DNA of 58,469 nt, from positions 1 to 58,469 of the forward strand of contig JAZDSV010000070.1 of the NCBI GenBank assembly GCA_036784855.1, in the 5' to 3' direction. This DNA comes from Aphelidium insulamus. Taxonomy: Eukaryota; Aphelidiomycota; Aphelidea; Aphelidiaceae. Of this stretch, positions 394 to 58,145 are shown piece by piece; the first letter of the stretch is position 1, and each line of letters opens with the position of its first letter. Below the pieces are notes generated by a model. It saw only the letters and a list, made by a program, of their open reading frames with translations, was not told where the DNA came from and did no database searches. A program made the position numbers and the translations under genes.

Positions 394-403
394 TAGATAG
401 ACT
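394..403 (+). promoter_or_regulatory. Self-complementary primer binding site
   Basis: TAGATAGACT directly after the 5' LTR is the exact reverse complement of AGTCTATCTA at 146-155, the predicted 5' end of the element's own RNA. I see no match to the 3' end of initiator tRNA. This is the arrangement of Tf1/sushi-type elements, in which the RNA 5' end folds back to prime minus-strand synthesis. Complementarity is seen; use as primer is inference. Confidence 0.75.
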
Positions 404-408
404 CTACC

Positions 409-3400
409 ATGGAGGAAGCTCCACCAACGCCAACTCTGAGACCACCCACTCACGAGGAACTGATAACACAAGTATATACGTTGACTGATCAAAATCGGGA
501 GCTCCAGCAGCAGATGCAAGAGATCCAGCAGCGCTTGGCGGCAGAATCTATTTTGGACTGCCCGACCCCACGGGCTTCTCATCGCAGCATCCCCGAGACA
601 TCAGTCAACGCCATGCGTAGTGACGTGCATAAACTGCTACAGACCAAGATGATCCAGGCATTCAGTGGCACCGCCGAGTCAACATTGCTCGTGCGCAAGT
701 TCCTCCGCCAGTGCAACATTGCATTCGACTTCTATGGCATTTGTGCCCTGCAGGCGCGATATATTGTTGTGGGAGCAATGTTGACGGATCGAGCCGAGTT
801 GTGGTGGTCGGCATTAGCTGCCCCACCGAATACGTGGACCACCTTTGAGACGATATTCCAGGAGCAGTTCCTGCCAATTGGGGAGGTGAACCGCGCACGT
901 TATGAGATGAGCCGACTGGAGCAAAGAAACTTCAAGACATTAGCCGAGTATAATGCCAAATTTCGCGACCTGCACACGGTTATTGGCAACATGACGGAGT
1001 GCGAGGCACTTGACATCTACCTCCGTGGATTGAGCCGCGCTACACAGCTCCATGTGGCAACCTTGTCTCCCGGCAGCTTCGAGCAAGCAATGGCTTGGGC
1101 CGTCCGCTTTGATGCCATAGCTACACAGGTGGATGTCAACATAGGCCGCCAAAAAGCGACACCATACCGTTATTCCGGGTACAACAATGCAGCTGTGGCA
1201 GCCACCCCGCCGGCCGGAGCCAGTAGCGGTCCCGAGCCCATGGACCTCTCCGCCGCAGCCAACGCCGGAGCCGTGGCATACCCACCTAAGCTGACACCAG
1301 AAGAGAGGGAGCGCTGCTTCCGCGAAGGCCGTTGCTTGGCCTGTCGTCAGTTGGGACATGTGGCCGCCGATTCCGTTTGCCGTTTTTATGCTTTGCGCAG
1401 CAATAAACCGACAATTTCTCAGTACGAACTCATTTCAGCTGAAATTGAAAATGCGCGCATTGAACGTCATGCCAATCAGCATAACCTGCTGCGAAAAGCA
1501 GGCTCAATCAAGGGACGGAGCGTAACTATTTTATTCGATTCCGGCGCGACGCACAATTTTGTGTCCGCTCGCGTACTACACAGCCTCGGATTGACGGCTA
1601 CTGGACCGTCCAGCCACGTACGACTACCTGATGGGAAAATTTGCAACGGATTGGGAAGTGTGACACTACCAGTGGAGATAGGGACCCACTACCGCGAGAA
1701 CATCCAGTTTGTTGTCATCGATCTGCACCGAGACTTAGACGTGATACTCAGTAAGGAATGGTTTACCGAAATCAACCCACAGGTGGACTGGCGCGAGAAC
1801 GTTCTACGATTCGATAGGCACGGCCGACAAGTGGTCATACAAGCTCGGAATGCACCGCTTCGCGAATTCGTGGACTGTCAGCTTCTCGAGTGCAATGCCT
1901 TCACTAAGGAAGCCAAACGGTCCAACGAGCCCGTCTATGCCGTGCTTGTCAAGGAAATTTTGGATCCAACACGTGAGAACGCGGTCCATGTGCCCGGCCT
2001 GGATAAGTTAATCAGTGGATTCAATGACGTGTTCAGCAAGCCGCCGGACTGCCTACCACCGCGCCGCGCTGTTGATCATGCAATCCCCCTAGTTGAGAAC
2101 GCGCGCATACCGGCGCAACGCTTCTACCGGTTGAGCTTCGCGGAATCGGACGAGCTCAAGGTCCAGCTGAAGAAGCTCCTTGACCGCGGTTGGATCCGTC
2201 CCTCAACTAGTAGTTATGGTGCACCGGTGCTCTTTGTACAGAAGGCCAACAACCGCGGTCTGCGCCTGTGTGTTGACTACCGCGCCTTGAACGACATCAC
2301 TATGAAGGACCGCTACGGAATGCCACGCGCCGACGATTGCCTTGATCAGTTGGCCGGGGCGAAAATCTTTTCCAAATTGGATTTAGTGTCCGGATTCCAC
2401 CAAATCCGAATCAAAGACGAGGACGTACATAAAACGGCGTTTCGAACGAAATATGGTCACTTTGAGTATCTCGTGGTGCCGTTTGGACTGACCTCGGGCC
2501 CCGCCACGTTCCAACGCCTAATGAATCAAGTTTTTCAGCCTTTGCTAGACGATGGCGTCGTGGTGTACCTGGATGACATTTTAATCTACTCGAAAACGCC
2601 ACAAGAACATTTGCAACTGTTGCAAAAAGTACTCCAACTACTGCGCGATAACCAGCTGTATGCCGAGCCAGCCAAATGCGAGTTTGCACGTTTTCAGACG
2701 CATTTCCTGGGCCACGTTGTGGGATGCGATGGCATTCGCATGAACAGTTTAAAAGTGGAGCTCATCCGGGATTGGAAACAGCCCCGGAATGTCACAGACC
2801 TGCGTTCATTTTTGGGTGTGTCTAATTACTATCGACGTTTTATCGACCGGTACTCTCATATTGCCGCGCCGCTTACCGCTCTCACGGGGAAGGGAGTGGA
2901 ATGGCAGTGGACGGAGCAGACAGAGGCGGCATTCACTACCCTGAAGCACTGTCTCACGTCAGCGCCTGTCTTACAGCCCCCGGACCGCAATCGCCCATTC
3001 TTCATTTTTTTTGACGCCTCTTCAGTAATTGCAATTGGATCTGTGTTGTGTCAAGAAGATTCGGACGGACGCTTACATCCCGTTGCCTTTGAATCGCGAA
3101 AACTGAATGCAGCTGAGCGGAATTACCCAGTACATGAAGTGGAGATGGCATCGTTAGTTCATGCACTGAAGAAATGGCAACACTACCTTGATGTTGAGCG
3201 ATTTTTCGTGTACACCGATAACATCTCACTTCAGACTCTGCATACCAATGAAAACTTGAGTAAACGACAAATACGCTGGTTAGCCGAGATTCAAAGCTTT
3301 CAGTTCACCATCCGACACATACCTCGAGAACAAAATGTGGTGGCGGACGCCCTCTCCAAGTACAATCAGGAGCCTGTCGGACTTCCGAATGGAACCGATA

Positions 3401-5066
3401 TCCACACTTTTAATGGCGACACATCAATGCAAATTGCACACACGGATCTGGTTGGTCCGAATGACGTGCCCATACGTGATTTGAATATGGAGCGCCAAGC
3501 ATTTCATGACATGGTACGCACCGGATACCAAAATGACAACCGTTGTCAACGCATTCTAGCCAACGGCCAAGCGCCATTCCGAGTCGACAATGGCCTGATC
3601 TTCTTTGAGCCGCAGTCTGCTCCATCCCGACTCCTCGTACCTACAACACCCTTGGTTATCCGGACCATTCTGAAGGATGAACATGACCGCGCCGGCCATT
3701 TTGGAGTGGAAAAGACAATGGACTTGGTACGACGCAAGTACCTGTGGAACCACATGGAAAAATCAGTTCGACGCTATTGTGCGGCGTGTGATTCCTGTCA
3801 ACGTGTCAAGGATACTAATCGGCCGCCACATGGACTATCCGTACCACTTGAGGTTTCCGTAGAGCGCTGGTCAGACCTGGCTATGGACTTCATGCCGGAC
3901 CTGCCCACTAGTCATAACGGCAACGATTCAATCCTGCTTGTGGTATGCCGTCACACAAAGGCCATTACTCTGATTCCGTGCAAGAAGGCCGCCACATCCG
4001 CCAAAATTGTTGAGCTACTACGTCTACACGTCTTTCAGCACAAAGGATATCCAAAATCCATAGTATCGGACCGTGACTCGCGATTTTCATCGCGCTATTG
4101 GACAGCATTGATGGCTCGTTGGGGTGTGGAACTCAAGATGTCCACCGCAAACCACCAGCAGACTGATGGACAGAGTGAGCGAGGCGTTCGTACGGTCAAA
4201 GAAGTCCTGCGCCACTATGTCAGCTTTCAACAGGACAATTGGGAAAAGCTACTCCCCGACGTGACTATGGCATATAATGACGCCACCAATGCATCCACTG
4301 GCTTGACACCATTCTTTGCCGACCTGGGCCGCCATCCAAACGTCCTGAAGCTACACACCCCGCCTTCCAATGCACCGGCAGTGGAGGAGCTCGCACAGCA
4401 GCTGAAGGAAACTAGCGAGCAAATTGCAGATCGCCTGACCTTGGTAGCACAAGACCAAAAATTTTACGCGGATCAGCAAAAGTTGAACCGCCAACATTCC
4501 AAATTGGTAATCTGGTTCTACTCGATGCTTCGGCCCTCACCAATTGGCCGATCTTCCGACAAGCGCCGATCCGAAAGCTGCGACCGCGTCGTTTTGGCCC
4601 ATTCAAAATTACCAAGATTGCTGGAGTGAACGTCACGCTGGAACTCCCACCAACCCTGCGGATCCATCCAACTTTTCATGTGTCACTCATCACGCCCTAT
4701 GTAGCATCGGACATTCCAGTGTATGATGAGCCTCCTGCAGAAATTATTGATGGTCAAGCGGAGTTTGAAGTAGAGGCTATTCTCGGACATCGAACCTTCC
4801 GGCGACAGAGACAATACTTGGTGAAATGGCGTGGTTACTCTAACGAACATAACACCTACGAACCACAACGTAATCTGACAAACTGTGGCAATATTCTACG
4901 CAAATACCATGAACAACTGGCAGAGGCCTCATTTTTGTTGGGGAGTGTAACCCCAAATGACGTCATTCTGCGTCATCGATCGGAACCGGCAATTCGGGAG
5001 CCGGTTGCTAGCGCGGGAAACCCTGATCGGACGGACGGTCGATCGGTCAGTCCTTCCAGACTATAA
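409..5066 (+). pseudogene. Gag-Pol polyprotein with C-terminal chromodomain, one frameshift
   Basis: Gag and pol share one frame from ATG 409. Visible in order: capsid-like gag; a degenerate zinc knuckle near 1330-1380 (C-x2-C-x4-H-x6-C instead of x4); aspartic protease motif DSGA near 1540; reverse transcriptase with YLDD near 2566; RNase H starting with a DAS motif near 3015; integrase with HHCC zinc-binding motif near 3680-3800 and DDE residues in MDFMPD, SDRDSRF and the later QSER helix. At about 4500-4515 the frame changes by one base, as expected from a one-base deletion. The second frame carries the GPF module and a chromodomain (about 4755-4920, LVKWRGYSNEHNTYEP) and stops at 5066. 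The frameshift may be a real lesion or a sequencing error; otherwise the pol looks intact. Confidence 0.9.
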
Positions 5067-5407
5067 AGGGCGGTGATCTGGCGACTTGACCGGCAGTCTA
5101 TCTACGTTTATCCACACTTAGACGTTAGGTTGGTTCTGTCTGGTCGCGCTCCTCCTGGTTGTCGCGTCGTCTCATCACTCAAAGGTATTGTTAATAAATA
5201 CGTTTATCCACACTTAGACGTTAGGTTGGTTCTGTCTGGTCGCGCTCCTCCTGGTTGTCGCGTCGTCTCATCACTCAAAGGTCTGCCTGGCGTGTCTGCT
5301 CTCACGCCCTGCTGACACTTAGACGTTAGGTTGGTTCTGTCTGGTCACGCTCCTCCTGGTTGTCGCGTCGTCTCATCACTCAAAGGAGCCAAGCGCCCTT
5401 TGTTACA
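4946..5407 (+). repeat. 3' LTR
   Basis: 462 bp from TGTAACCCC to GTTACA. It matches the 5' LTR almost base for base up to the repeat zone, then has an extra copy of the repeat unit (about 5281-5385) introduced by a unique stretch (TCTGCCTGGCGTG onward) and carrying one variant base. TATA and transcript-start motifs recur, with AGTCTATCTA at 5095-5104. Confidence 0.95.
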
Positions 5408-9629: not shown

Positions 9630-12572
9630 TCACTCCACACTCAACGAACAGTACAAAGCAGTAGTTATCGTTTTCTGGGTCTGTGGGTTCGAATTTATCA
9701 GTACAGACGAAGTTATAACAATATCAAGCATTATACCTTTGGGAAGTTCGTGTGGCAGTCCATTTATACTACGCAATTTATACTCATATGCCGTTCCATC
9801 CGCAGTGGAGTGAGCAATCTGACCAGAAACTTGCGCGAACACTAAAGACCGAGATAGGTCTGGTTTCTTGTCCAATACGCCCTGAAATATCATCGGTCCT
9901 TTGCCTTTTTCCGCGCCTTTAGAGGGTGGCTGGGAAACCTCACGTTTGTCGATTTCGTTGACGTCACTAATGACGCTTTCATTTTGGAGTCGCTGCCGCT
10001 TTGCTTTATGCCCATCGTGTGGCTTCTTGCGGTCCGCCAACCATTCATCATACGTTCCAGTCTTTGCAGTCGCAAAGTAACTCTCCTGCAAACGATGCAC
10101 AAACACAATGTGGATCTGCGCCTTCTCAGGAACACGAACGATGATTTGCTGCATTGTAGGTAGAGTGACCACATGGTGATGTTTCGCCTCGCCAGCGCCA
10201 ATTAGCACCAAGCCGCTTTCAGTCTGTAGGTAGATCAATATCTCAACGCCGTCTTTGTTTTTTGCGCGGTCTAGTTTGCCAATCACCGCGCCTTCCATTG
10301 CCACAATTTCCTGGGGCCACTCGCCATTTGGTGTGGTCAAGAACGGAATCACCAATTTGCGGTCACAAACGGGCATGAAGTCTCCAAAGTCCACTTTCAC
10401 TGCGGCCATGTCTACGTTGGTAGGAACCGTGTGGTAGATAACATTCGCGAGAAAATCTTTCAATTTTGTGCCCCGCAGTCCGCCCAAATGAGAAGCTGCA
10501 CAAACTGCCGCCGCCAAATGGGTCTCCATCCAAGTCCCATCGTTTGCTGGCTGTACGGCATTTTGCGTGTTTAACTCCTGGCCAATGACACTTGCAGCCG
10601 TCGCAAATGTATAGCGAAAAGGTACCGTATAATTGTATGGTCGGATGGACAAAGAAAGATCGGTGACATCCTGCTGAATGGACTGATCTGGTATAAATCG
10701 AGCGGGCAGTATGAATGGGGCAATTTTGGCAGTTCCAAGAAGAGTCAAATGTAGCAGAAAATCCTTTCTAGCAGCGGGAAACGACGCGATGGGGTTCCAT
10801 TTATCGTGTTTAATTTTGCCGGCCACAAACACACTTTGGTTGGACATAACGGTAAAATCGGGATCGCCGACCAAGTTGGCAAAATGTGAGTGAATTAGTA
10901 CCGTCGACATTGTCCTAGGCTCCTTGCATCGCTTCAAATCGTCCAGGGTTGCAAAGGCGTTCAGGAAAAGGCGCACCTGCCCTACTATTCCATAATTTTT
11001 AGAGGCCGATGAAAAATACAGGTTTTTCGTATCAAATATCATTCGGGTCAATTCTGTCAACATTGACTGGAATATGTCAATGCTAAAAATTTCTTGACAT
11101 CTCACCCGATTTGCAATGAACATGGCAAATCGGGGCCGGGAATGAAGCAAAATGTACTGCAACCACTTTGGAGGTAGAGGAGCGTGGACATCAAATCCCA
11201 GCGTCTGGAGAGTAACCGGCGGAAAAGAGGAAATACGTGGCACCAAGGCACAACGGTGTTGTTTGAAGAGCTTGCTTCAGACTGGAAGAAAAGTTTGGCA
11301 ACAGAAATGTCGGTTCCCGACAAGACAACAGGCACCCCAACGATGCGAAGGGCGTTTCGAAGAAAGCGCACCAAAGAAATACCTCCAGACGCAGTCGTGG
11401 ACACCTCATCGATGAAGATACACAACTTCTTCTTAAGGCTTCTAACCTTTGCCGTGGCGGCCGCCCGCGAGGATGGAGTTATTATCAAATTGGACTCTGT
11501 GCCAATATTTAGCTCGCAAATTGTATTGAGAAGATGTTACCGTTGCGTTCAGAAGGGGCTGCGTTGGCCAAGTCGGCCAACTTGTCCACCATTCCCCAGA
11601 TGAAGAGGTTGCGCTTAACTTCTCCCATCAGCTTAAGGGGAAGATCGAAATTGTCGCGCAAGATTGCCCGATCCTCGGCAATGCACATCTTCAGCAGTAG
11701 TGTGCTGCCCGAATACGCCTGGTATATGTCTTGAACAATGTCCTGAGCAGCAGACGCCAACATATAAATGCACTCGAAATTTTTGTCCCGCAGAGCCTGG
11801 ACCAAAGTCAGAGCCATTTGAGTTTTTCCCATTCCAGACGAGCCTTCGAGGAATATAAAGGGAATGGTTTCGCTGTCTGCAGTGGCGATCTGTCCAATTT
11901 TGTCAACAATTGGAGCAATAGTGGCGTGGTGCTTCAGAAAATTGGCGACACGCTGGTAGTTTTTATATGCAGCGCACACGGCGGGATCGTCCAAGATAAG
12001 AGCAATCGAGCCCGCGATGGGAGGCTCTGCATGATTTAGTCTTTCTCTAAATCAGACAGCTTACCTTGCACTGGCGGTAGAGCAAACTTGACAATGAGCG
12101 GATTCTTCGATGTAGTTTGACCCAATGTCCATAATTTAACCTCCAAATCGTACTGGCGCGAGTCGTCGGGAGAGTGGACGGTGACATCGCTCGCATCCAC
12201 ACCCTTCAGCTCGGGCTGAGTAGTGCAGAGGTATTGGACCAGATCCATGACGTCGCTCATACCATCGATGTTGATGCAAACTGGCCCACCGCCGCCGCTG
12301 TATCGAATCCACACAGCTAAAGAATATCTGATAATGAGCGGTTCCTTCGGCGTAGTCTGACCCAATGTCAATAAATTATCCTCCAAATCGTACTGGCGCG
12401 AGTCGTCGGGAGAGTGGACGGTGACTTGAGAGGCGCCGACGCCAGCCAGCTCGGGACGAGTGCACAGCAGGTGAATGAGATCAATGATGCGGCGTTTTGA
12501 ATTCGGTGGGAAATCAGCGAGATCAATTTCGTCCAGGCCGCCATCGTTGAAGCAAATCCACAGAGCTGCCAT
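9630..12572 (-). CDS. Crinkler (CRN) protein: two header domains, P-loop NTPase, PD-(D/E)XK
   Basis: Exons 12572-12065, 12026-11541, 11496-11255 and 11204-9630 give 936 residues. The N terminus holds two tandem ubiquitin-like Crinkler header modules sharing VTVHSPDDSRQYDLE and a LGQTT segment. Next comes a P-loop NTPase with Walker A GSSGMGKTQ and Walker B LCIFIDEV. The C-terminal half contains a restriction-endonuclease-like core ending GEAKHH, the E-x-K of PD-(D/E)XK nucleases. CRN proteins of oomycetes and basal fungi combine these parts and are proposed host-nucleus effectors or inter-organism conflict proteins; the role here is unknown. No classical signal peptide is seen. Intron 1 (38 bp) and intron 2 (44 bp) are clear. 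The third junction needs either a 50-bp intron (11205-11254) or a one-base frameshift; the intron keeps the frame. A hAT relic lies just upstream of the start. Confidence 0.85.
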
Positions 12573-12816: not shown

Positions 12817-13970
12817 TCATTCCAAAGTAATAACTTTCTTGTCCGTGAATGCTTTCATTACCTTCTCTTCGATCTCATCCGGGATTACATTGAACCAAAA
12901 CTGCATCAGCATTAGTTTTCGGATTGTTTCTGCTTTTAGAGATGCTCGTCTTATCCCCAATAAGTCTCTTGCTGCACTAAACCATCGCTCCACTGCAACA
13001 GAGCCGGCTGGTATTGCCAAGTAGTGTCGAGCCAATGCTGCCAACACGGGGAAACGATATTGATTAGCCTTCCAGTACTCCAGTGGTGCGGCTGTTAAGT
13101 CCAGTGGTTCGTCAACATACCGATGCAATTCTTCAGTTGTTGTTGCTATGTTCTCCATACGGCGGCGTTTGGTAATTGATTGTTGTTGCCATGATTCCAA
13201 CTCAACATCAATAACTATTTGCTCTGGCTGAGTTGTTACTGGCTTGCTGCTATTGACTTTGTTCATGGCATCAATGATAATTTTTTGATACTGCTCCGCA
13301 TATTCCGGGCATTTTGCATCCACCCATGCCATTTTTGTATCTGGCTGCAAAACCATACTGATAATGCTGATGTCGGACAAACTTGATTTCTTATAATATT
13401 GGATAGCCTTCAAAGCGGCAGCCTGGCACGCAGTGTTGAGTTGAATGTTTTCATGTTGTTGCTCTTCGAAGAAGTCGATCAAAGTGTTAAACAAAGGGAT
13501 GACCTTGCCAATTGTTGTGCCTCTATTCTTCGAAAAAGTTTCCGTGAGTTTCTTGAGCGGCTCGAGAATTTTTGCCATAATATCAACCAAAGTCCATTCA
13601 TCTTCAGTGAGTGAGAACTTCTCGAAACTTTTAACCGTCTGGCAGATTTCAATTAATGGCTATTTCAACTTCAAGCAACGCGCTGCCATATCAAATGTCG
13701 AATTCCAACGAGTGCTTACATCCAATATCACAGCCAAACTGCCGGTGTTCGATGCCTTACAATAATGTGAAAATTTTTCGCCCATCTGAGGAGATTTTCG
13801 GATTTTTGTGATCAAACTTCGAAGTTTCTTCAGTGGATTTGCTCCTTGAATTGCAAACTTTTCACCATCAATATCCATGATGTCCCCTAATGTCGCCTCA
13901 CCTTCTTCACTCTGTTCCACGCAGTCTCCGGATTCAGTGCAGTTATCATCATCTTTTTGCTTATTGTCAA
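12817..13970 (-). pseudogene. hAT-family transposase, 5' truncated with an in-frame stop
   Basis: Minus-strand frame from about 13970 to 12817. It contains STRWNSTFDM, typical of the hAT catalytic core, and the C-terminal hAT dimerisation region (YWKANQYRFPVLAALARHYL and onward, with VERWFSAARDLLG). A TAG at 13660-13662 interrupts an otherwise continuous frame after CLKLK. The N-terminal BED finger and first catalytic Asp region are missing; homology stops near the palindrome at 13977-14027. Not functional as it stands. Confidence 0.85.
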
Positions 13971-47719: not shown

Positions 47720-48023
47720 CATCTTGATAAGACTTGAGGTGAAGCGCGCGTTGCTTGCACTCACTCTGCTTGAAGGTAATAGATCTTGATAAGACTTGAG
47801 GTGAAGCGCGCGTTGCTTGCACTCACTCTGCTTGAAGGTAATAGATCTTGATAAGACTTGAGGTGAAGCGCGCGTTGCTTGCACTCACTCTGCTTGAAGG
47901 TAATAGATCTTGATAAGACTTGAGGTGAAGCGCGCGTTGCTTGCACTCACTCTGCTTGAAGGTAATAGATCTTGATAAGACTTGAGGTGAAGCGCGCGTT
48001 GCTTGCACTCACTCTGCTTGAAG
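47720..48023. repeat. 62-bp minisatellite, five copies
   Basis: GATAAGACTTGAGG recurs at 47726, 47788, 47850, 47912 and 47974, spacing exactly 62 bp, copies nearly identical. Each includes GAAGCGCGCGTTGCTTGCAC. As 62 is not a multiple of three and all frames cycle, it is unlikely to code. It ends about 185 bp before the first EF-hand-family gene. Confidence 0.97.
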
Positions 48024-48207: not shown

Positions 48208-49250
48208 ATGATTACTGATTTGACGCGCTTCTCGGCCGTGGCCGCCACGTGCATGCTGCTTGCCATCGGTGCAAATGCCGAGGCGGTGGCCAAGCCCCCG
48301 GTAGATTTGGCAAAGCCACCGGTGGAGTTGGCCAAACCATCGGCACAGGTGGCCAAAACCACGGGCAAAGTGTGCGCAGAGGGCGACGGCCCTGCCACCA
48401 ACACCACGATCATTCAAGCGATGTTTCCAGGGCAATTTTTTAACTTTACGGAAAATACTGCAATTAGTATGCTTGCATTTGACGATAACAAGGATGGATT
48501 GCTGCAGCAGGATGAGCTGAACGAGTTTTTCGTAACCAATGGAAATTATTCCGCGGCTTACACCAACCTCTTCAAGGACTTTGACCTTGATGGTAGGCTT
48601 CTATTTTTATTTGTACACTAGTTGATCTCACTGCATTATTAGGTGACAAGGGCATCAACGCGCAAGAGTTGAATGCTGTCATGGAGCAGATTGCAAATGT
48701 CACCTTCACCGGCTGCGCTGGGCTCTGCAACGCGGTCCAGGCCAAGTTGGACTCGTGTCACTTTCTGGACGATGTCGATATGCGCAATGGTACTACTGCC
48801 GACGCGAAGCACGTAAAAGACCAGCAGGACGCTTATATGCTGCTGGCCAGTTGCCGCCTAGGATATCCCGAGTTTGACAAGTTTGGCAAGTGCGTCAAAG
48901 AGTCGCCGTGTGACGGCATCTCAAAGTGTGTCGAGAAGGGACGGCGATGTCCCTATGGCATTTGCAACTTACTTGAAATTGGAGTCATCGAGCCGCACAG
49001 TAGCAACCTCACATCGGCCATTCGCACTGATGAGAAATCCATCAAGGCTTCCCATACGAAGGGCAGATGGTACTGGGCGGCCTTGCTCGCCACTTCAGCA
49101 ACTAGCGGATTGGCACTGAGAGGTTTGCTTGGAGGAGGCAGCGCGTTGTTGACAATGGGAAGTGCGGCGGGTTTGGTAGTGTCGGTGGCTCTAATTGTAT
49201 TTATTATCCACCGAACATATTATCGCAACTCCATGTACTTGGTTAACTAA
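48208..49250 (+). CDS. EF-hand/Cys-rich secreted single-pass protein, family member 1 (intact)
   Basis: Exons 48208-48592 and 48643-49250; 993 nt, 330 residues. Signal peptide (ATCMLLAIGANA), a Lys-Pro spacer with repeats of the VAKPPVDLAKPPVELAKPSA type, then the family signature VCAEGDGPATNTTI. EF-hand 1 loop DDNKDGLLQQDE and EF-hand 2 loop DLDGDKGINAQE are both canonical. A Cys module follows (GCAGLCNAVQAKLDSCHF, ASCRLGYPEFDKFGKCVKES, then KGRRCPYGIC), then one C-terminal membrane span (LVVSVALIVFIIH) and a 12-residue tail. Intron 48593-48642 splits the second EF loop. No family is recognised. Predicted to expose a calcium-binding ectodomain outside the cell or in a secretory compartment. 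Confidence 0.85.
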
Positions 49251-49616
49251 GATAGTACTAGAACAAAAGAAGTCTCGAAATATTTGCTGAACCTCTTCTA
49301 ATCGCTCATTCAACATCTTCACATCACTCGAATAAATCATGCACCTTGCAGGTGATTGTATGATTTTTACGTGGTAAGAAGGTTTCAACAACTGGACGTT
49401 TTCTGACATATTGATTGATTGATTTATTCATTAAACGTATCTAACCGGTCGGTCATGACGTTATAGTGATCGGACACACAATCGGCACACAGGTATGATG
49501 GACCCCATACGGAGTAAACCACCGAACAGTGACAGGCGCACAGTCGGGGCGTGATCAATTGTTGGCGCGCAGTGTTGTGATTGTTCTTGGCGAGTCGTAA
49601 CAGTCGATGTGACTAG

Positions 49617-49895
49617 TGTTGTTGTTGTTGTAATGGAGCTGGACGGGGCGGACCTTTACCGCGACGCCTCTGACGCTGACACTTGAGAGAGCCGAAACCG
49701 AAGTACCGAATATCTGAAGGAAACCGAAACCGCAACCGCAACGTGTTGAATGACCGAAACTGACACCCCGAAAAATCTGGCGGCACAACAACGCAGTAAA
49801 ATTCGAAAAACCGGCACAACACACTCCGGGGTTCGAACTCTATCTGCTGGCCGCCACCGTGTAGTAACTTAACCACTTGGACCACGGCGGCGGTT
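49617..49895 (-). mobile_element. tRNA-derived SINE
   Basis: On the minus strand from about 49893: pol III box A TGGTCCAAGTGG (49884-49873) and box B GAGTTCGAACCCC (49840-49828) at tRNA-like spacing, but the acceptor ends do not pair, so it is not a working tRNA. About 200 bp of unrelated body follows, ending in an (ACA)n tail (AACAACAACAACAC at 49617-49630). This is the structure of a tRNA-head SINE. No second copy is seen in the window. Confidence 0.65.
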
Positions 49896-50088
49896 TCTGA
49901 CATATGGATGTTTTTTCAGTAGATGCATTGGTTCACAACCTGACTATGCAGGTTCACAACTCGTCACCCACTCCAAGAGCAAATTGTTTATCGTTACTAA
50001 ATAACGCATAGCACCTCACCTTCTTCACGTTGATTTGGCCACTTTTCTTGATAGAAGGGATTGCGCCCCTTTTTTCATTATCGCGAAA

Positions 50089-51148
50089 ATGTTTCCGACT
50101 TGCCGTGACGGCCACGTGCGCCACGTGCATGCTGCTTGCCATAAGTGTCAGCGCCCAGCATGTGGCCAAACCACGGACAACAGAGGCGGCCAAACCACTA
50201 TCAGCAGACGTTGCCAAACCGTCGGCACACGTTTCCAAAAACATGGGCGGTGTGTGCGCTGAAGGCGATGGACCCGCAACCAACACCACGATTCTGGCTG
50301 CCCTTATCCCGACATGAATGTCACGGCCGCACAAGAAGCTGACGTAGTTTTTGCGGAACTGGACATGCACGACAACAGCGTACTGGACCACGATGAACTG
50401 AAAAACTTTGTTTTTCTAAATGACGCAGTCGCGGTAATGTATGGTGACGCGTTCAAAGATGTGGACTTGAACGATTCGTGTGCATTTTTTTCACAATTAA
50501 GGGCTTAATACTCATAGCCACGAATGTTTAGGCAACAATGCTATTGACAAGCAAGAGTTTCGAAATGTCACCGAGGCCATCACCAATGTAACCTTCACGG
50601 GCTGCATTGGGCTGTGCAATGCAGTCAAGGCCACATTGGACTCGTGTCACTTCTTCGACGAGATTGATCTGAGAAATGGAACCACTGCTGACGCGATGCA
50701 CGTAAAAGACCAGCAAATGCCCGGACGGTCCTGACCAGTTGCCGGCTAGGGGCTCCCCAGTTCGGCAAGTTTGGCAAATGTGTCAAAGAGTCGCCGTGTG
50801 GCGGGATTCCAAAGTGTGTGGCGAAGACGCGAATCTGCACTTTCAGGCTGTGCAATACGGCGGAAATTGGATTGATTGTGCCGCACATGCAAGTCTCACA
50901 ACGTCTCAGCGGCCATTCGCACTGATGAGAACTCCGTTAAACGTCAAAGATTTTTCAACAAGTGGTACGGGGCTGCACTAATTGCAACTGGACTGGCTGG
51001 CGGAGTGCCATTGAAGGAACTTGTATCCCGGGGTGGCGCGCCACTTTTGATGAGAGATGTGGCTGGTGTGGTAGTTTGGATAATAATCTCGGCCATTATC
51101 ATTCACTATCAAGCGACTCACAAATCAATGGTTGTGTTTGGTGGCTAA
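50089..51148 (+). pseudogene. EF-hand/Cys-rich family member 2, broken
   Basis: Same plan as member 1: signal-type TCATCMLLAISVSA, the signature VCAEGDGPATNTTIL, EF part LDMHDNSVLDHDELKNF, second exon GNNAIDKQEFRNV to LDSCHFF, then ESPCGGIPKCV and a C-terminal span (VVWIIISAIIIHY). Lesions: ATG 50089 is one base out of frame with the signal peptide; the frame shifts again near 50318; the intron donor has become GATTCG instead of a GT site; an A is lost near 50715 (KDQQ then stop); and a further shift lies near 50890-50930. Clearly a pseudogene. Confidence 0.88.
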
Positions 51149-51435
51149 TAGGGTGAAAGGTACTATGAAGCATATACGCCACTGCCTGCTGGTGGTGGAT
51201 TGCTTCCTTGATGCTGGACGCCGACCAAAGAAGGTCTATTGCATGGCGCTTTGAGCAAAATATAGATATTTCGGCAGGATTGTACCAGATCACATTATAA
51301 ATAGTTTTGCCTTGTGATTTGACTTAGGAGGACTAGAGTACTCGACGAATATGGATTTTTCCGAAGAAAAGTGTTTTTGCCAAGTCAAGAAGCAACACGA
51401 AATGGTTTGCGCCCTTTTTCATTCACATCACGAAA

Positions 51436-52517
51436 ATGAATCTTGCATTAACGCGCCTATCCAGCGTGGCCAACGTGCTTGCCACGTGCCTGCTGCTTGC
51501 CATTAGAGCCGGTGCCCAGTCTGCGGCCAAACCACCATCGGCAGAGATGGCCATACCATCGGCAGAGACGCCAAACCGCTATTGGCAGAGGTGGCTCAAC
51601 CTTCGGCAGACGCGGACACAGGCAGTGTGTGCGCCGAGGGCGATGGACCCGCAACCAACACGACAATTTTTGAGGTGCTCTTTCCAGGACAGAAATTCGA
51701 CACCAGCAACGATACCAACGATATATTGGCGCAAGAACAAGGACGGCTTCTGGCAACGCAATGAGATGGATGCTTTTATCTCATATCATGGAAATTTATC
51801 TGTCATTTTTGGCGATGCTTTCAACGATTTAGACCTGAATGGTAAATTCGCGTTGCTGTACAGTAACTGACGTCTTCTCATTGCACTACTTTGTCATACA
51901 TAGGCGATAAGATGGTCAATGCTCAAGAGCTGCAAAACGTCACCCAGGCCATCACCAATGTCACATTCATGGGCTGCATTGGGCTGTGCAATGCAGTCAA
52001 GGCCAAATTGGACTCGTGTCACTTCTTTGACGACATTGATATGAGAAATGGGACCAGTGCTGACGCGATGCACGTAAAAGACCAGCAAAATGCCCGGATG
52101 TTTCTTGCCAGTTGCCGGCTAGGATCGCCGGATTTCGACAAATTCGGCAAATGCGTTAAAGAGTCGCCGTGTGATGGCATTCCTCAGTGCGTCTAAAAGG
52201 GGCAGCGATGTTATAATGGCATTTGCAATTTGGTTGAAATTGGAGTCATTGAGCCGCACAGTGCCAACCTCACAACGGCCATTCTCACCGACAAGAAATC
52301 CGTCAAGGCTCAAGACTCCATTAAACGTTGGAACCGGGTTGGTTGGTTTGGTAGCCTTCTAGTTATCGGTATTGTATTAAATCGCCTGACCAGCCGAGGC
52401 AGCGCGACGCAACGTTTGCTAGATTCATTTGCCTTCGTATATCTTCTCTCTCTGGCTTTGAGATTCAACCACGAGATTATACATCGCAATCCAATGTACC
52501 TGTATGGGGGTAAATAG
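51436..52517 (+). pseudogene. EF-hand/Cys-rich family member 3, broken
   Basis: Exon 1 from ATG 51436 (MNLALTRLSSVANVLATCLL), donor GTAAAT at 51841; exon 2 from about 51903 (GDKMVNAQELQNV). Between about 51580 and 51735 the family sequence, including VCAEGDGPATNTTIF, is in another frame; two compensating indels let the main frame stay open but with altered residues. In exon 2 a TAA at 52194-52196 follows IPQCV where member 1 has a Glu codon; homology continues in the same frame to the C-terminal span and a stop at 52517. Upstream sequence resembles the 5' flanks of members 1 and 2 (CACGAAAATG). Confidence 0.85.
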
Positions 52518-52561
52518 AAGGCAGAGCATTTAACGTAAGCAGTTCTCAGCTATAGTCAAAT

Positions 52562-52710
52562 ATTGATATAGGTGTATATATGTAGATGTATATATGTAGA
52601 TGTATAGATGTAGATGTATAGATGTAGATGTATAGATGTAGATGTATAGATGTATAGATGTAGATGTATAGATGTAGATGTACAGACGTAGATGTATAGA
52701 TGTATGTACA
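52562..52710. repeat. Minisatellite of TAGATGTA words
   Basis: Irregular tandem array of 6- and 12-bp units (GTAGATGTATAGAT) directly upstream of RIB1. It is AT-rich and may overlap the RIB1 promoter. Confidence 0.92.
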
Positions 52711-52787
52711 AATAGCTGGAAGAACATTGCTCTGGCAGGCTTCAATAGTAATTGATGAACTGCATCCATCTATACAATCACGCACAG

Positions 52788-53981
52788 ATGGCATCAAGCA
52801 GTGCCGCCGTAGACCACGACCACCGCGGCGGTTCAGGGCAACAACAACACTATGCTGGGCCATCGGTGGAGTGCCACGTCCGGTCACGCATACCCACTGG
52901 CTCGCGTTTGTGTGGTGGGGTCGTCTGTGCCGAGTTTGATCTGCTACTGTACGCCGAGAGCCGGCAACTATCGCCACGCGTCATCACCTCTGTCACCACC
53001 ACCGCACACTGTCTGCAACCGATGGCATTTGTGTTTGGCGCGAGCAGGTGGCGACACAGCACTTCACTGGAGATGGAACGCGTGCCGGCGGAGACACCGC
53101 ACCAGCGCTTCGTGCGCGGCTGTCTCACCCGCTCTGCCCACAGTGACGTCATACCCGCCGCTGGTCAGCCCACTCTGCCGTGTCACCACCGCCGCCGCCA
53201 CAGCCATGAAGCCACAGCTACTGCTGCCGGAGAAGACTCGTCTCTGCCGCCGCTGGTGCGCGTGCACTCGGCGTGTTTCACGGGCGAGACGGTCTACTCG
53301 GCACGGTGTGACTGTGGCGACCAGTTACGACGCGCCATGCAACTCATGAGCCAGTCTGGTGACGGTGTCATTATCTACCTGCCGCAGGAGGGTCGCGGTA
53401 TTGGTCTCGAGGCTAAACTCATGTATGTCGTCTAAATTGCTCTTAAAGAATGGACATGTCGATACATCGTTGATACACGCACATACTGATTCATATGTAG
53501 GGCATACAATCTGCAAGATGCGGGGCATGACACGGTGGACGCCAACAGATTACTGGAACATCCTGTGGATGGCAGGCAATATGCAGTGGCTGCGGAAATT
53601 CTGCGCGACTTGAATATTGAAATGTGCCGTCTGCTCACGAACAATCCGGACAAGATTACGCAGCTGCGCCAGTCTGGCATTGACGTCGTGGAACGTGTGG
53701 CACTGCTGGGCACCGCTGCCGACCACATCATCCCGCCACCATTACTCGTATCCACAGATGCAGAATCAACTCTGGCTGGACGGCAGATGATGGCTCCATC
53801 ACCACCGCCAAACAGTGGCGTGGATCCCAAGGTAGACGCCGAGATTGATGCCGATTTGGTTGCTGTGCGCCGGGCATTGGGCAATCGCGGCCTGTTTGAC
53901 TATCTGCGGACAAAGGTGGCGCGAATGGGCCATATGATTGAGCTGGATGGCAACAGCGATGCCAGCTCGCAAGTGATGTGA
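52788..53981 (+). CDS. RIB1: GTP cyclohydrolase II (riboflavin synthesis)
   Basis: Exons 52788-53422 and 53501-53981; 1116 nt, 371 residues (an in-frame ATG at 52755 would add 11). Zinc site [20 protein letters not shown], catalytic [20 protein letters not shown] and [20 protein letters not shown] are seen. It opens the imidazole ring of GTP to give the first riboflavin intermediate. Monofunctional, not fused to DHBP synthase, as in fungi. The usual HSEC is HSAC here. The C-terminal tail of about 85 residues is an extension over bacterial RibA. It sits between the two halves of the EF-hand cluster, without obvious functional link. Confidence 0.93.
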
Positions 53982-54079
53982 TTAAAGTTGCGGATTCTAG
54001 AGTGTGCTGTCGCTGAATAAACCGTACTATGACCTTTTAAATAGCAACTGTAGGCCCATATCCATAAGGATATAACTGC

Positions 54080-54560
54080 TATTCGTCAGTCGATCCGTAA
54101 CTGAGGCTTGGACAGAGTCGCACAATCCCTGGCACCCGGCAAAGTTGACAGCCATTAGCTTGGGGATGGCCGCCTTCACTCGTCCGCAGAAATTTATCTG
54201 TCGCCTAAATTGATATGTGTCATTTTATCTCACAATAAGAACTTATTTAATATACACACTATTAACATCCGCAAGTATCTGATATCAAGAAATTGACGTG
54301 TTGCCATGAGTAGGTTGGCTGAGATTCATGAGCTTGCCAGTCGTTTGTCAGCTCTCATCATGCAGTCATGAATGCCCAATGATGCGAAATATTCCGACGA
54401 CAGGTTTCTGGGAGTGGTGCTCGGCAAACAGCGTAGTGTTCTTGATGGGTCCATCGCCGTCTGCACAATTCAATGACGCGTCTGCCATGGATGACGCCGG
54501 CGCCTTCGTGGCAGATGTCCCATTCGACAATGCTCGCGTTGCCAATATGTGTGGCACTTG
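54080..54560 (-). pseudogene. EF-hand/Cys-rich family member 5, relic
   Basis: Minus strand. 54560-54366 matches exon 1 of member 4: PASSMADASLNCADGDGPIK and NTTLFAEHH. Further on, degraded DNA still aligns (CTCATGGCAACACGTCAA). The start of exon 2 is recognisable at about 54205 (GGCGACAGATAAATTTCTGC), and the stretch coding CQGLC and SVQA follows. About 30 bp are then missing compared with member 4, between two GCC triplets, and similarity fades. Signal peptide, Cys module and membrane span are gone. Confidence 0.7.
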
Positions 54561-54672
54561 AGACGAATGGTGTCAAAAAGCAGAAAACTTTGCTCGCTTT
54601 GCTCAATATATGTAGCCTTATCATAACATCAACATTAAAAAAAACATGTATTTGCCGCTATTTAGCCCCCAT

Positions 54673-55712
54673 TTAATTTCGAATACTGATGATACTGGGA
54701 GAATCGGAAGCAATATACCAGGCTGCTGCCCACATGAGTAGACCACCAAACATATTTTGTCCCCACTCGGCCCACGGCACAGTTCCGATAAGGTTAAGAT
54801 ACATGTATAGCATGGGTGTTACGGAAGCAGCCATGGCAACGGCTGCCACATTATGCCACATCGTATTTCGCTGCGCACTAGTCACTTGATGACTGTCGGT
54901 CAAAACCGTTTTCCAGCTCCCTGCGCCGTTCATTACCGCGATATCGGCAACATTGCATCGGCCCCAAAAGCAGTGTCGACCCTTTGTCACACAATGAGAC
55001 ACCTTGCTGCATACTTTGGAGCGAACACAGCGAGCATAGTCCATGAAATCCGGTGAACCCAACCTGCAGCTAGTCAATAGCAGTGTGGCCTGGTGCTGGC
55101 GCCTAATCTCTTTTTTATCCGTAGCTGAGGCATTGAAGAAATGACACTGGTCCAACTTGGCCTGGACAGACTCGCACAGTCCTTGACATCCAATGAATTC
55201 AACAGTCAACAACTTCTTGATGGCCCTCTTCATCTCGTCTGCAGTTATTTTCCTGTCGCCTATTTGCATGATGTCATCTGACACATATAAATACTTTGGG
55301 TCATACCGTCAAAGTCTGCAAACTTTTTGATATCTGTGGCAGCAATCGATGTGTTGCCATGAGCCACTCGACTTAGATTCAAGAACACGCCACGCGACTC
55401 GGAAGCACTCATCACGCCGTCGTCATAAATGCCAAGCGATTCAAAGTACTTCGTGGACAGTTTGGCGGGAGGCGTGACGCCCGGAAACAACTCCGCAAAC
55501 AGCGTGGTGTTCTTGGCGGGCCCATCGCCCTCGGCACACGGTAATGACGCGTCTTCCATTGACGATGATGCGGGTGCCAGTGTAGCCAACGCAACATTTG
55601 ACGATGATTGAATTTCTGGTGCTGTCCGAGTGGTGGTTGGAGCGCTGGCAAGAGTTCCTCTTAGCGTGGCTGCAATGAAGCAGGCAAATATACGGCGAGT
55701 ACAGGTGCGCAT
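54673..55712 (-). CDS. EF-hand/Cys-rich secreted single-pass protein, family member 4 (intact)
   Basis: Exons 55712-55307 and 55259-54673; 993 nt, 330 residues, the same length as member 1 despite low identity. Signal peptide MRTCTRRIFACFIAATLRGT, Thr/Ser-rich spacer, signature PCAEGDGPAKNTTLFAELFP, a degenerate first EF-hand (YDDGVMSASE) and a canonical second one (DFDGDRKITADE). Cys module GCQGLCESVQAKLDQCHFF, TSCRLGSPDFMDYARCV, KGRHCFWGRCN. Membrane segment(s) near the C terminus (AAVAMAASVTPMLYMYL and GLLMWAAAWYIA). The intron (47 bp) interrupts the second EF loop at the same position as in member 1, after the Gly codon's first base. Confidence 0.83.
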
Positions 55713-57366: not shown

Positions 57367-58027
57367 TCACTCGTCCGAAACGACCAGTTGAATTCCGTGT
57401 TCCGCCATAAACTCTGGCACCTTCAAGCTGCGGTCGTAGCCGTACGTCATGACATAGGCTTTGACCTCCGTCCATGAGTAAAGACGCTTTATCAGCGCCA
57501 CCTTCTTTGCGAACGTACGCAGTTTCAAAAACTGCTTGTCGTCAATATAGGCCTTCACTTCGGCAACAACAACCGGATTGGAGCAGAAGAAGTCGAGTTC
57601 TACAACCGATTGCGTGGCGTGAACAGTGCATTCCGGGTCGGGAAAGTGGTGGCCGACTGAAAGGCGACCGCGGCATTGCTGGAAACAGCTTTTCTACCCA
57701 CGCTTTGTTGACCCGCTCAATGCTCCACCACCGCTGAAGCTCGACAGCTTCGCATCGATTTGCGTTGAACAAGCCTTCATGCTGAATCGGTCTTTTCGCG
57801 TTGAATCGGTCTTGGCGCTCAATAAACTTTATCATGTGTGCGTGCATCGCCGACTGCTGGTCTTTCAGCGCCGCCAGCGCATCATCAAATTCACCTCGCA
57901 TCCCTGGCTGAGCGGTGGCGCTGGACAACGCGCGACTAGTCGGCGGAAAATGCGCAAAGCGGCGGGTAAGAGACCCGCGACGAAGGCCGGCGAATGCCAG
58001 GGCGGAGGTCAAGCGGAGAGGAGTCAT
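57367..58027 (-). pseudogene. PD-(D/E)XK nuclease-like protein with mitochondrial-type N terminus, frameshifted
   Basis: From ATG 58027 (MTPLRLTSALAFAGLRRGSL) an Arg/Ser-rich presequence-like region leads to a short helical part (FDDALAALKDQQSAMHAHMI). Near 57660 the frame changes by one base. The second frame reads HATQSVVELDFFCSNPVVVA then EVKAYIDDKQFLKLRTFAKK and stops at 57367. The E-x-D followed by E-V-K is the core of PD-(D/E)XK nucleases. No splice pair resolves the junction, so it is a broken gene or a sequence error. It differs from the nuclease domain of the Crinkler. Confidence 0.5.
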
Positions 58028-58053
58028 GGTAGCGAGAGGAATATATGCACAAA

Positions 58054-58110
58054 CTGAAAAGAAAGAAAGAAAAAGAAAGAAAGAAGAAAAGAAAGAAAAA
58101 AAAGGAAAGC
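58054..58110. repeat. (GAAA)n microsatellite
   Basis: Imperfect GAAA/GAAAA run just upstream of the nuclease-like gene start on the minus strand. Confidence 0.85.
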
Positions 58111-58145
58111 TAGCTCGCCCAATCAAGTCCTAAATCATCTTACAG

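Follow-up and report, generated by a model that had tools for sequence, protein, structure and literature searches.

What protein family accounts for five related loci crowded into 7.5 kb (positions 48208-55712) of contig C142 of Aphelidium insulamus, and what might these proteins do? The window analyzed here is the entire contig, 58469 bases. The five loci form a small part of an expanded family whose roughly thirty genes are spread over the genome. As judged by sequence comparison, the encoded proteins present a new combination, that of a known calcium-binding domain, the EF-hand pair, with an unclassified cysteine module, and the intact genes appear to be under purifying selection. Aphelids stand between phagotrophic parasites and true fungi, and the molecular basis of algal recognition and entry is nearly blank; an expanded, apparently membrane-anchored family with an unclassified module provides concrete candidates for host contact and suggests that aphelid-specific biology is worth seeking outside the named domains. 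A. insulamus is described as an algal parasitoid and a sister to fungi (PMC10608142).

The cluster on contig C142

A sequence-only reading of the window had described the five loci as members of one family of secreted EF-hand and cysteine-rich proteins, and the anatomy that it outlined is upheld, with the qualifications given below, at the following coordinates:

48208-48592, + strand: member 1, exon 1; predicted signal peptide, Ala/Lys/Pro spacer, C-x-x-G-D-G-P motif, EF loop 1 and the start of EF loop 2
48593-48642, + strand: member 1, intron; 50 nt, GT-AG, phase 1, within EF loop 2
48643-49250, + strand: member 1, exon 2 (coding to 49247, stop 49248-49250); encodes the remainder of EF loop 2, then the seven-cysteine module and a hydrophobic C-terminus
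50090-51148 (about), + strand: member 2, broken; reading frame scattered over several frames, the first two breaks in common with the copy on contig C80
51436-52517, + strand: member 3, broken; exon 1 frame breaks plus an in-frame TAA at 52194-52196
52788-53981, + strand: intact two-exon gene for GTP cyclohydrolase II (RIB1-like), located between members 3 and 5 and outside the family
54030-54572, - strand: member 5, degenerate; exon 1 piece 54369-54572 and exon 2 piece 54030-54224, in which similarity ends soon after CxxxC
54673-55259, - strand: member 4, exon 2 (coding 55259-54676, stop 54675-54673)
55260-55306, - strand: member 4, intron; 47 nt, GT-AG, phase 1, within EF loop 2
55307-55712, - strand: member 4, exon 1; probable signal peptide as judged by eye, followed by a Thr/Ser/Ala spacer, the motif, a degenerate EF loop 1 and the start of EF loop 2

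Coordinates and splice models agree with the earlier claim that members 1 and 4 are intact genes on opposite strands that share an intron inside EF loop 2: both spliced products consist of 330 residues, and the same phase-1 intron position was chosen again when no phase constraint was applied. The equal length looks like a coincidence because complete spliced models of the family range from 305 to 387 residues. Members 2, 3 and 5 are dead, as had been proposed, with split frames and, in member 3, the additional in-frame stop. Part of the member 1 spacer is encoded by a 21-bp minisatellite (48287-48362). The kinship of the loci is above chance, given that exon 2 of member 1, compared to the genome, retrieves members 3, 2 and 4 at 8e-77, 2e-40 and 5e-31, respectively.

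Two repeats were observed in the same region. A perfect 62-bp tandem repeat (4.9 copies, 47721-48023) lies immediately upstream of member 1, and a dispersed repeat of 482 bp occupies positions 49412-49893; among the 40 of 88 candidates that were scored, 14 are full-length or nearly full-length copies with at least 95% identity, the window copy included. From the look of its A and B boxes, we take this repeat to be similar to short interspersed nuclear elements; ARAGORN identified no tRNA gene within it.

The family across the genome

The genome assembly searched comprises 17,953,404 bases in 169 contigs. The published assembly of A. insulamus strain X-133 contains 18,927,283 bp in 274 scaffolds with a GC content of 52.05%, and its DNA was obtained from cultures of Tribonema gayanum, an alga, that carried the infection (PMC10608142). 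The assembly searched here, being smaller, has probably been filtered. Exon 2 of member 1 matches 52 places in this genome, and divergent queries from contigs C32, C92 and C42 match 46, 49 and 37 places, respectively, with all four queries leading to the same 13 contigs. In the DNA fetched around these matches, 39 open frames carry the seven-cysteine core, defined by the pattern C-x-G-x-C-x9-C...C-x(11-16)-C-x(5-9)-C-x(5-7)-C. A complete gene model was obtained for 28 of the 39 frames, or for 26 when C17 and C49 are left out as counterparts of other contigs. Two further frames on C49, with altered donor sites, fall outside the 28, and the remaining nine either have no exon 1 model or are truncated, or show both defects.

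The intron phase was imposed in the set that yielded the 28 complete genes; when it was left free, 25 of the 27 best-scoring models contained a phase-1 intron. One of the 28 genes, on C1, reads through without an intron (it is scored as intronless from two analyses, although the model-building run gave a spliced model). The weaker models among the 28 are the three C42 genes, the C82 gene and the gene at C92 178861, which have unusual junction residues, and the C41 model lacks a clear signal peptide. Family members are present on C1 itself, a contig of 1,020,338 bases, and the family is thus part of the main genome. The identity of that genome fits a zoosporic relative of fungi: the flagellar protein IFT46 was found in it and is absent from 14 control genomes, and there are 20 chitin synthase matches (best, 782 bits), a family that also matches in 4 of the 14 prokaryote controls. 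In a tree of the family, with six weakly supported forks, adjacent copies mostly cluster together.

Architecture of the predicted proteins

Invariant positions were determined in 13 of the 27 models built without a phase constraint, hydropathy and EF loops were analyzed in 21 models, and exon 2 was aligned in 30 rows, including 4 copies that lack an exon 1 model. In member 1 numbering, the start, C56, G61, P62, D96, E103, C153, G155, C157, K163, C167, C199, G202, C212, C218 and C224 are invariant in the 13 aligned members. The seven cysteines encoded by exon 2 are again constant across the 30 rows, which bears out the fixed cysteine module noticed previously, and the eight invariant cysteines could form four disulfides. 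The signature C-A-E/D-G-D-G-P-x-x-N-T-T, as first worded, is present as a motif, but only its C, G and P are invariant in the 13 members.

The EF-hand pair is real, despite the marginally sub-threshold score of member 1 alone (25.0 bits against the curated cut-off of 25.4), because the family profile matches calmodulins along two stretches that cover both loops, with an E-value of about 1e-14. Pfam EF-hand_1 is found in 11 of the 13 members at E up to 0.1, and the 12-residue loop with acidic ligands and Glu/Asp at position 12 is present. When a strict pattern is applied, each of the 21 models has at least one canonical loop, with two in 9 and one in the other 12. Accordingly, the assignment of two EF-hands holds at the profile level but not for every individual loop: EF loop 1 of member 4 (GIYDDGVMSASE) does not have the acidic residues normally found at positions 1 and 3, leaving loop 2 alone canonical.

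A hydrophobic segment is present at the C-terminus in all 21 models, which supports an anchor. The single-pass topology that had been assigned to it is doubtful for the family, given that two or more segments are detected in 17 models, but may hold for members 1 and 4, which are among the four models with one. The tails beyond the last hydrophobic segment are 5-41 residues long and, in divergent members, often finish in a short V-x-L-x-G-P-like sequence. Signal peptides were assessed by a hydropathy threshold and by eye; an N-terminal hydrophobic segment exceeds the threshold in 15 of the 21 models, consistent with the proposed signal peptide, but that of member 4 falls below it and was judged by eye.

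Searches for relatives and comparison with known systems

That no named family can be recognized is supported by the searches of Pfam, NCBIfam, PHROGs, solved structures and a collection of 5.8 billion proteins, none of which produced a convincing match to the cysteine module. In the protein collection, which is possibly thin in eukaryotes, none of the 2732 candidates for member 1 matched, nor did any of the 5642 candidates for the 30-row exon 2 profile; with the 13-row profile, one of the 7996 best-sharing candidates matched, an EF-hand protein over 9% of the query. The answers from this collection named the Joint Genome Institute as the sole source, and the lack of homologues elsewhere is thus not established. 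Weak Pfam matches, each in 1 of the 13 members, were obtained for DUF4062 (E 0.006), Toxin_32 (0.009), CX9C (0.039), DUF2207_C, a holin, DUF1554 and DUF7133. Among the PHROGs, phrog_8296, an entry without a function, was hit in 1 of the 13 members at 1.6e-5 and was not recovered with the exon 2 portions from 10 members, which matched phrog_15735 once at 0.006. The exon 2 profile aligns with MED29 chains at 0.05-0.11 over part of the cysteine module. No mention of the family was found in the literature searched, and the term 'EF-hand' does not occur in the main text of PMC10608142, PMC11767097, PMC6299283 and PMC8657485.

Several known systems share parts of this architecture. The paired 12-residue loops with acidic ligands, together with the profile match over both, are those of the EF-hand superfamily of the calmodulin type; unlike calmodulin, the aphelid proteins are probably secreted and membrane-anchored and contain a single pair that is joined to an unclassified cysteine module, with one loop non-canonical under the strict pattern in 12 of the 21 models. 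The XopAW calcium-binding effector family (NF041410) matches 7 of the 13 members, but at 26 bits against a cut-off of 120; the matched stretch in member 1 consists of the EF-hands, so that the likeness amounts to an EF-hand resemblance. SPARC/BM-40 (PF10591) contains an extracellular EF pair with disulfides, without membrane segments, and its cysteine pattern differs from that of the aphelid family; this candidate was rejected, with member 1 scoring 12.6 bits against the cut-off of 22 and a best E of 0.019 in 1 of the 13 members.

STIM proteins consist of a signal peptide, a luminal EF-hand, one membrane span, a SAM domain and a long cytosolic coiled coil. The aphelid family resembles them in the signal peptide, EF-hand and membrane segment but usually has two hydrophobic segments and no long cytosolic coiled coil, and no SAM match was found in the 13 members at E up to 0.1. 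CREC/reticulocalbin proteins end in an HDEL-type signal for retention in the endoplasmic reticulum (ER) and have no membrane span, whereas the aphelid proteins have hydrophobic segments and none of the 30 aligned C-tails has an HDEL-type ending. Small secreted cysteine-rich effectors lack membrane segments, unlike the aphelid proteins with the C-terminal hydrophobic segment common to all 21 models. Secreted families of zoosporic parasites, such as the protease and CBM18 families of Batrachochytrium, are reportedly expanded as well but carry known enzymatic or chitin-binding domains in place of an unclassified module.

Turnover and selection

Contig C80 carries another version of the C142 cluster (89.7% identity over 4.4 kb), and the start of C92 has a counterpart on C49 (about 90-91% identity within the family stretch). 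The cyclohydrolase stretch, which is 96.6% identical between C142 and C80, has matches only on these two contigs, and the C80 copy is intact. The earlier view that turnover is high is substantiated by these alternative versions, which differ in their intact members and combine shared with private lesions. Member 4 has an open frame on C142 but a split one on C80, and the member at C92 4259 is complete, with a fragmented counterpart on C49. Because no indels separate C142 from C80 at 50066-50881 (87.7% identity over the 2.6 kb aligned), both early breaks of member 2 are shared by the two copies, and its classification as broken is safer against assembly error than some others. The position of member 3 on C80 is occupied by a mosaic, the first 300 bases of which are 95-100% like member 3; the next three 60-base windows are 81-90% identical to member 2 compared to 40-55% for member 3, and the sequence that follows resembles both members and then is nearer member 3 again. 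The C142/C80 and C92/C49 pairs look like alternative haplotypes or strains or, possibly, segmental duplications. Over 9.4 kb, the identity of contigs C17 and C155 is 99.1-99.5%, but some frames intact on one are broken on the other and vice versa, which suggests that residual indel errors persist in the assembly and that some broken calls elsewhere may be artefacts.

The right end of the contig (57301-58469) recurs at C92 148-1241 (95%) and at C49 511-1374, and C142 and C92 may be neighbors. This end includes a 195-aa frame (57545-58129, - strand) without a Pfam match.

The ratios of nonsynonymous to synonymous substitution rates (dN/dS), computed with a custom Nei-Gojobori script, point to purifying selection on the intact genes. 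Whole-gene values are 0.12-0.49 over 10 pairs, rough ratios given that dS exceeds 1 in 6 of the 10. Regional comparison of 9 pairs yields 0.13-0.50 for the EF part and 0.05-0.29 for the cysteine module (computable in 8 pairs, in 6 of which it is the lowest region and in 1 tied); both parts are below 1 in every computed pair. Values above 1 were obtained for the N-terminal spacer in 2 of 7 computed pairs, resting on few changes, and for the membrane region in 1 of 8 pairs. The cysteine module is also the most conserved part by mean pairwise identity (0.36, against 0.15-0.29 in other regions, over 210 pairs). As a yardstick, the two cyclohydrolase copies show 6 silent and 2 replacement changes in exon 1 and 8 of each in exon 2. 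Diversifying selection on the exposed part was judged from these pairwise regional ratios. The suggestion that the family evolves fast under changing selection is weakened for the ectodomain, where the constraint is more in keeping with a conserved biochemical task than with an arms race.

Possible functions

We tentatively favor a role as a calcium-rigidified, membrane-anchored ectodomain at the cell surface or in the phagosome, serving as an adhesion or coat element at host contact; this reading is preferred because copy number and turnover of this kind are typical of interface genes. Each intact protein would probably enter the secretory pathway via its signal peptide and would comprise, in order, the N-terminal spacer (minisatellite-coded in member 1), a compact ectodomain made of the EF-hand pair and the cysteine module with four putative disulfides, in most cases a pair of hydrophobic helices, and a short C-tail. 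Calcium is millimolar outside the cell or in secretory and phagocytic compartments, and there the EF pair could be constitutively loaded and lock the ectodomain, which might then act in adhesion or as a coat while a zoospore, cyst or trophont encounters its algal host or deals with the contents of that host. Copies are likely born by local duplication, then recombine and die, with the ectodomain kept under purifying selection. The family itself, the order of its parts, its copy number, average constraint and turnover can be read from the DNA, whereas the calcium state, disulfides, use of the signal peptide, topology, location and adhesion are extrapolated from it.

Several observations weigh against this role. 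Purifying selection on the ectodomain offers no positive sign of an arms race with the host, and 6 of the 21 models, that of member 4 included, have no N-terminal segment above the threshold. Hydrophobic helices followed by a short tail would equally suit a protein of the ER or vacuole membrane. The AlphaFold model of exon 2, built from six window rows, is poor (mean predicted local distance difference test score of 50) and all helical; it served only to note this helical character, and its comparison with the PDB gave no fold match better than E 5.2.

The multicopy, clustered and recombining organization of variant surface antigens is found here (39 core frames, 13 contigs, one mosaic case), and the family might be a variable surface or allorecognition system in which alleles differ in their intact copies and repertoires would accordingly vary between strains or life stages. 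The clusters with broken copies, the differences in intact members that set C80 and C49 apart from C142 and C92, the mosaic gene on C80 and the spacer ratios above 1 all agree with such a system; nevertheless, we regard it as unlikely, given that the EF part and the cysteine module stay below 1 throughout, the spacer signal amounts to few changes, a single culture is known and the C17/C155 comparison implies that some frame differences are assembly errors. Slightly more doubtful is a bolder version of the host-contact role, namely, that a new disulfide module, so far found only in an aphelid, forms a recombining repertoire of calcium-dependent, membrane-anchored receptors for host attachment or engulfment; if true, this repertoire would be the first candidate host-contact gene family in the sister group of fungi. 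A luminal protein inside the cell, held in the membrane of the ER, vacuole or phagosome and buffering or sensing calcium, STIM- or CREC-like in action but belonging to neither family, would account for the EF pair, the membrane anchor and the constraint on the ectodomain; we consider it rather improbable because the C-tails have neither an HDEL-type ending nor a long cytosolic part, and tens of clustered, rapidly lost copies are unusual for a housekeeping calcium protein. Least probable, in our estimate, are structural proteins of the cyst wall or spore coat that are cross-linked by cysteines and calcium and play no part in host recognition. Aphelids do make chitin-walled cysts, and the proteins are probably secreted, cysteine-rich and multi-copy, but C-terminal hydrophobic segments occur in every model and no tandem repeats are seen by eye in the ectodomain in the 30-row alignment.

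Other elements of the contig

The remainder of the contig contains mobile elements and unassigned frames. An open frame for a 1410-aa polyprotein of the Ty3/gypsy type (397-4626, + strand), with gag, protease, reverse transcriptase, RNase H and integrase matches, is flanked by repeats resembling long terminal repeats (1-372 and 4950-5281, 89% alike). A 548-aa frame without a Pfam match is located at 9633-12051 (- strand) and adjoins a second frame with weak STAND/AAA ATPase scores below the cut-off. The C-terminal domain of a hAT transposase is encoded at 12820-13659 (- strand; E 1.2e-15).

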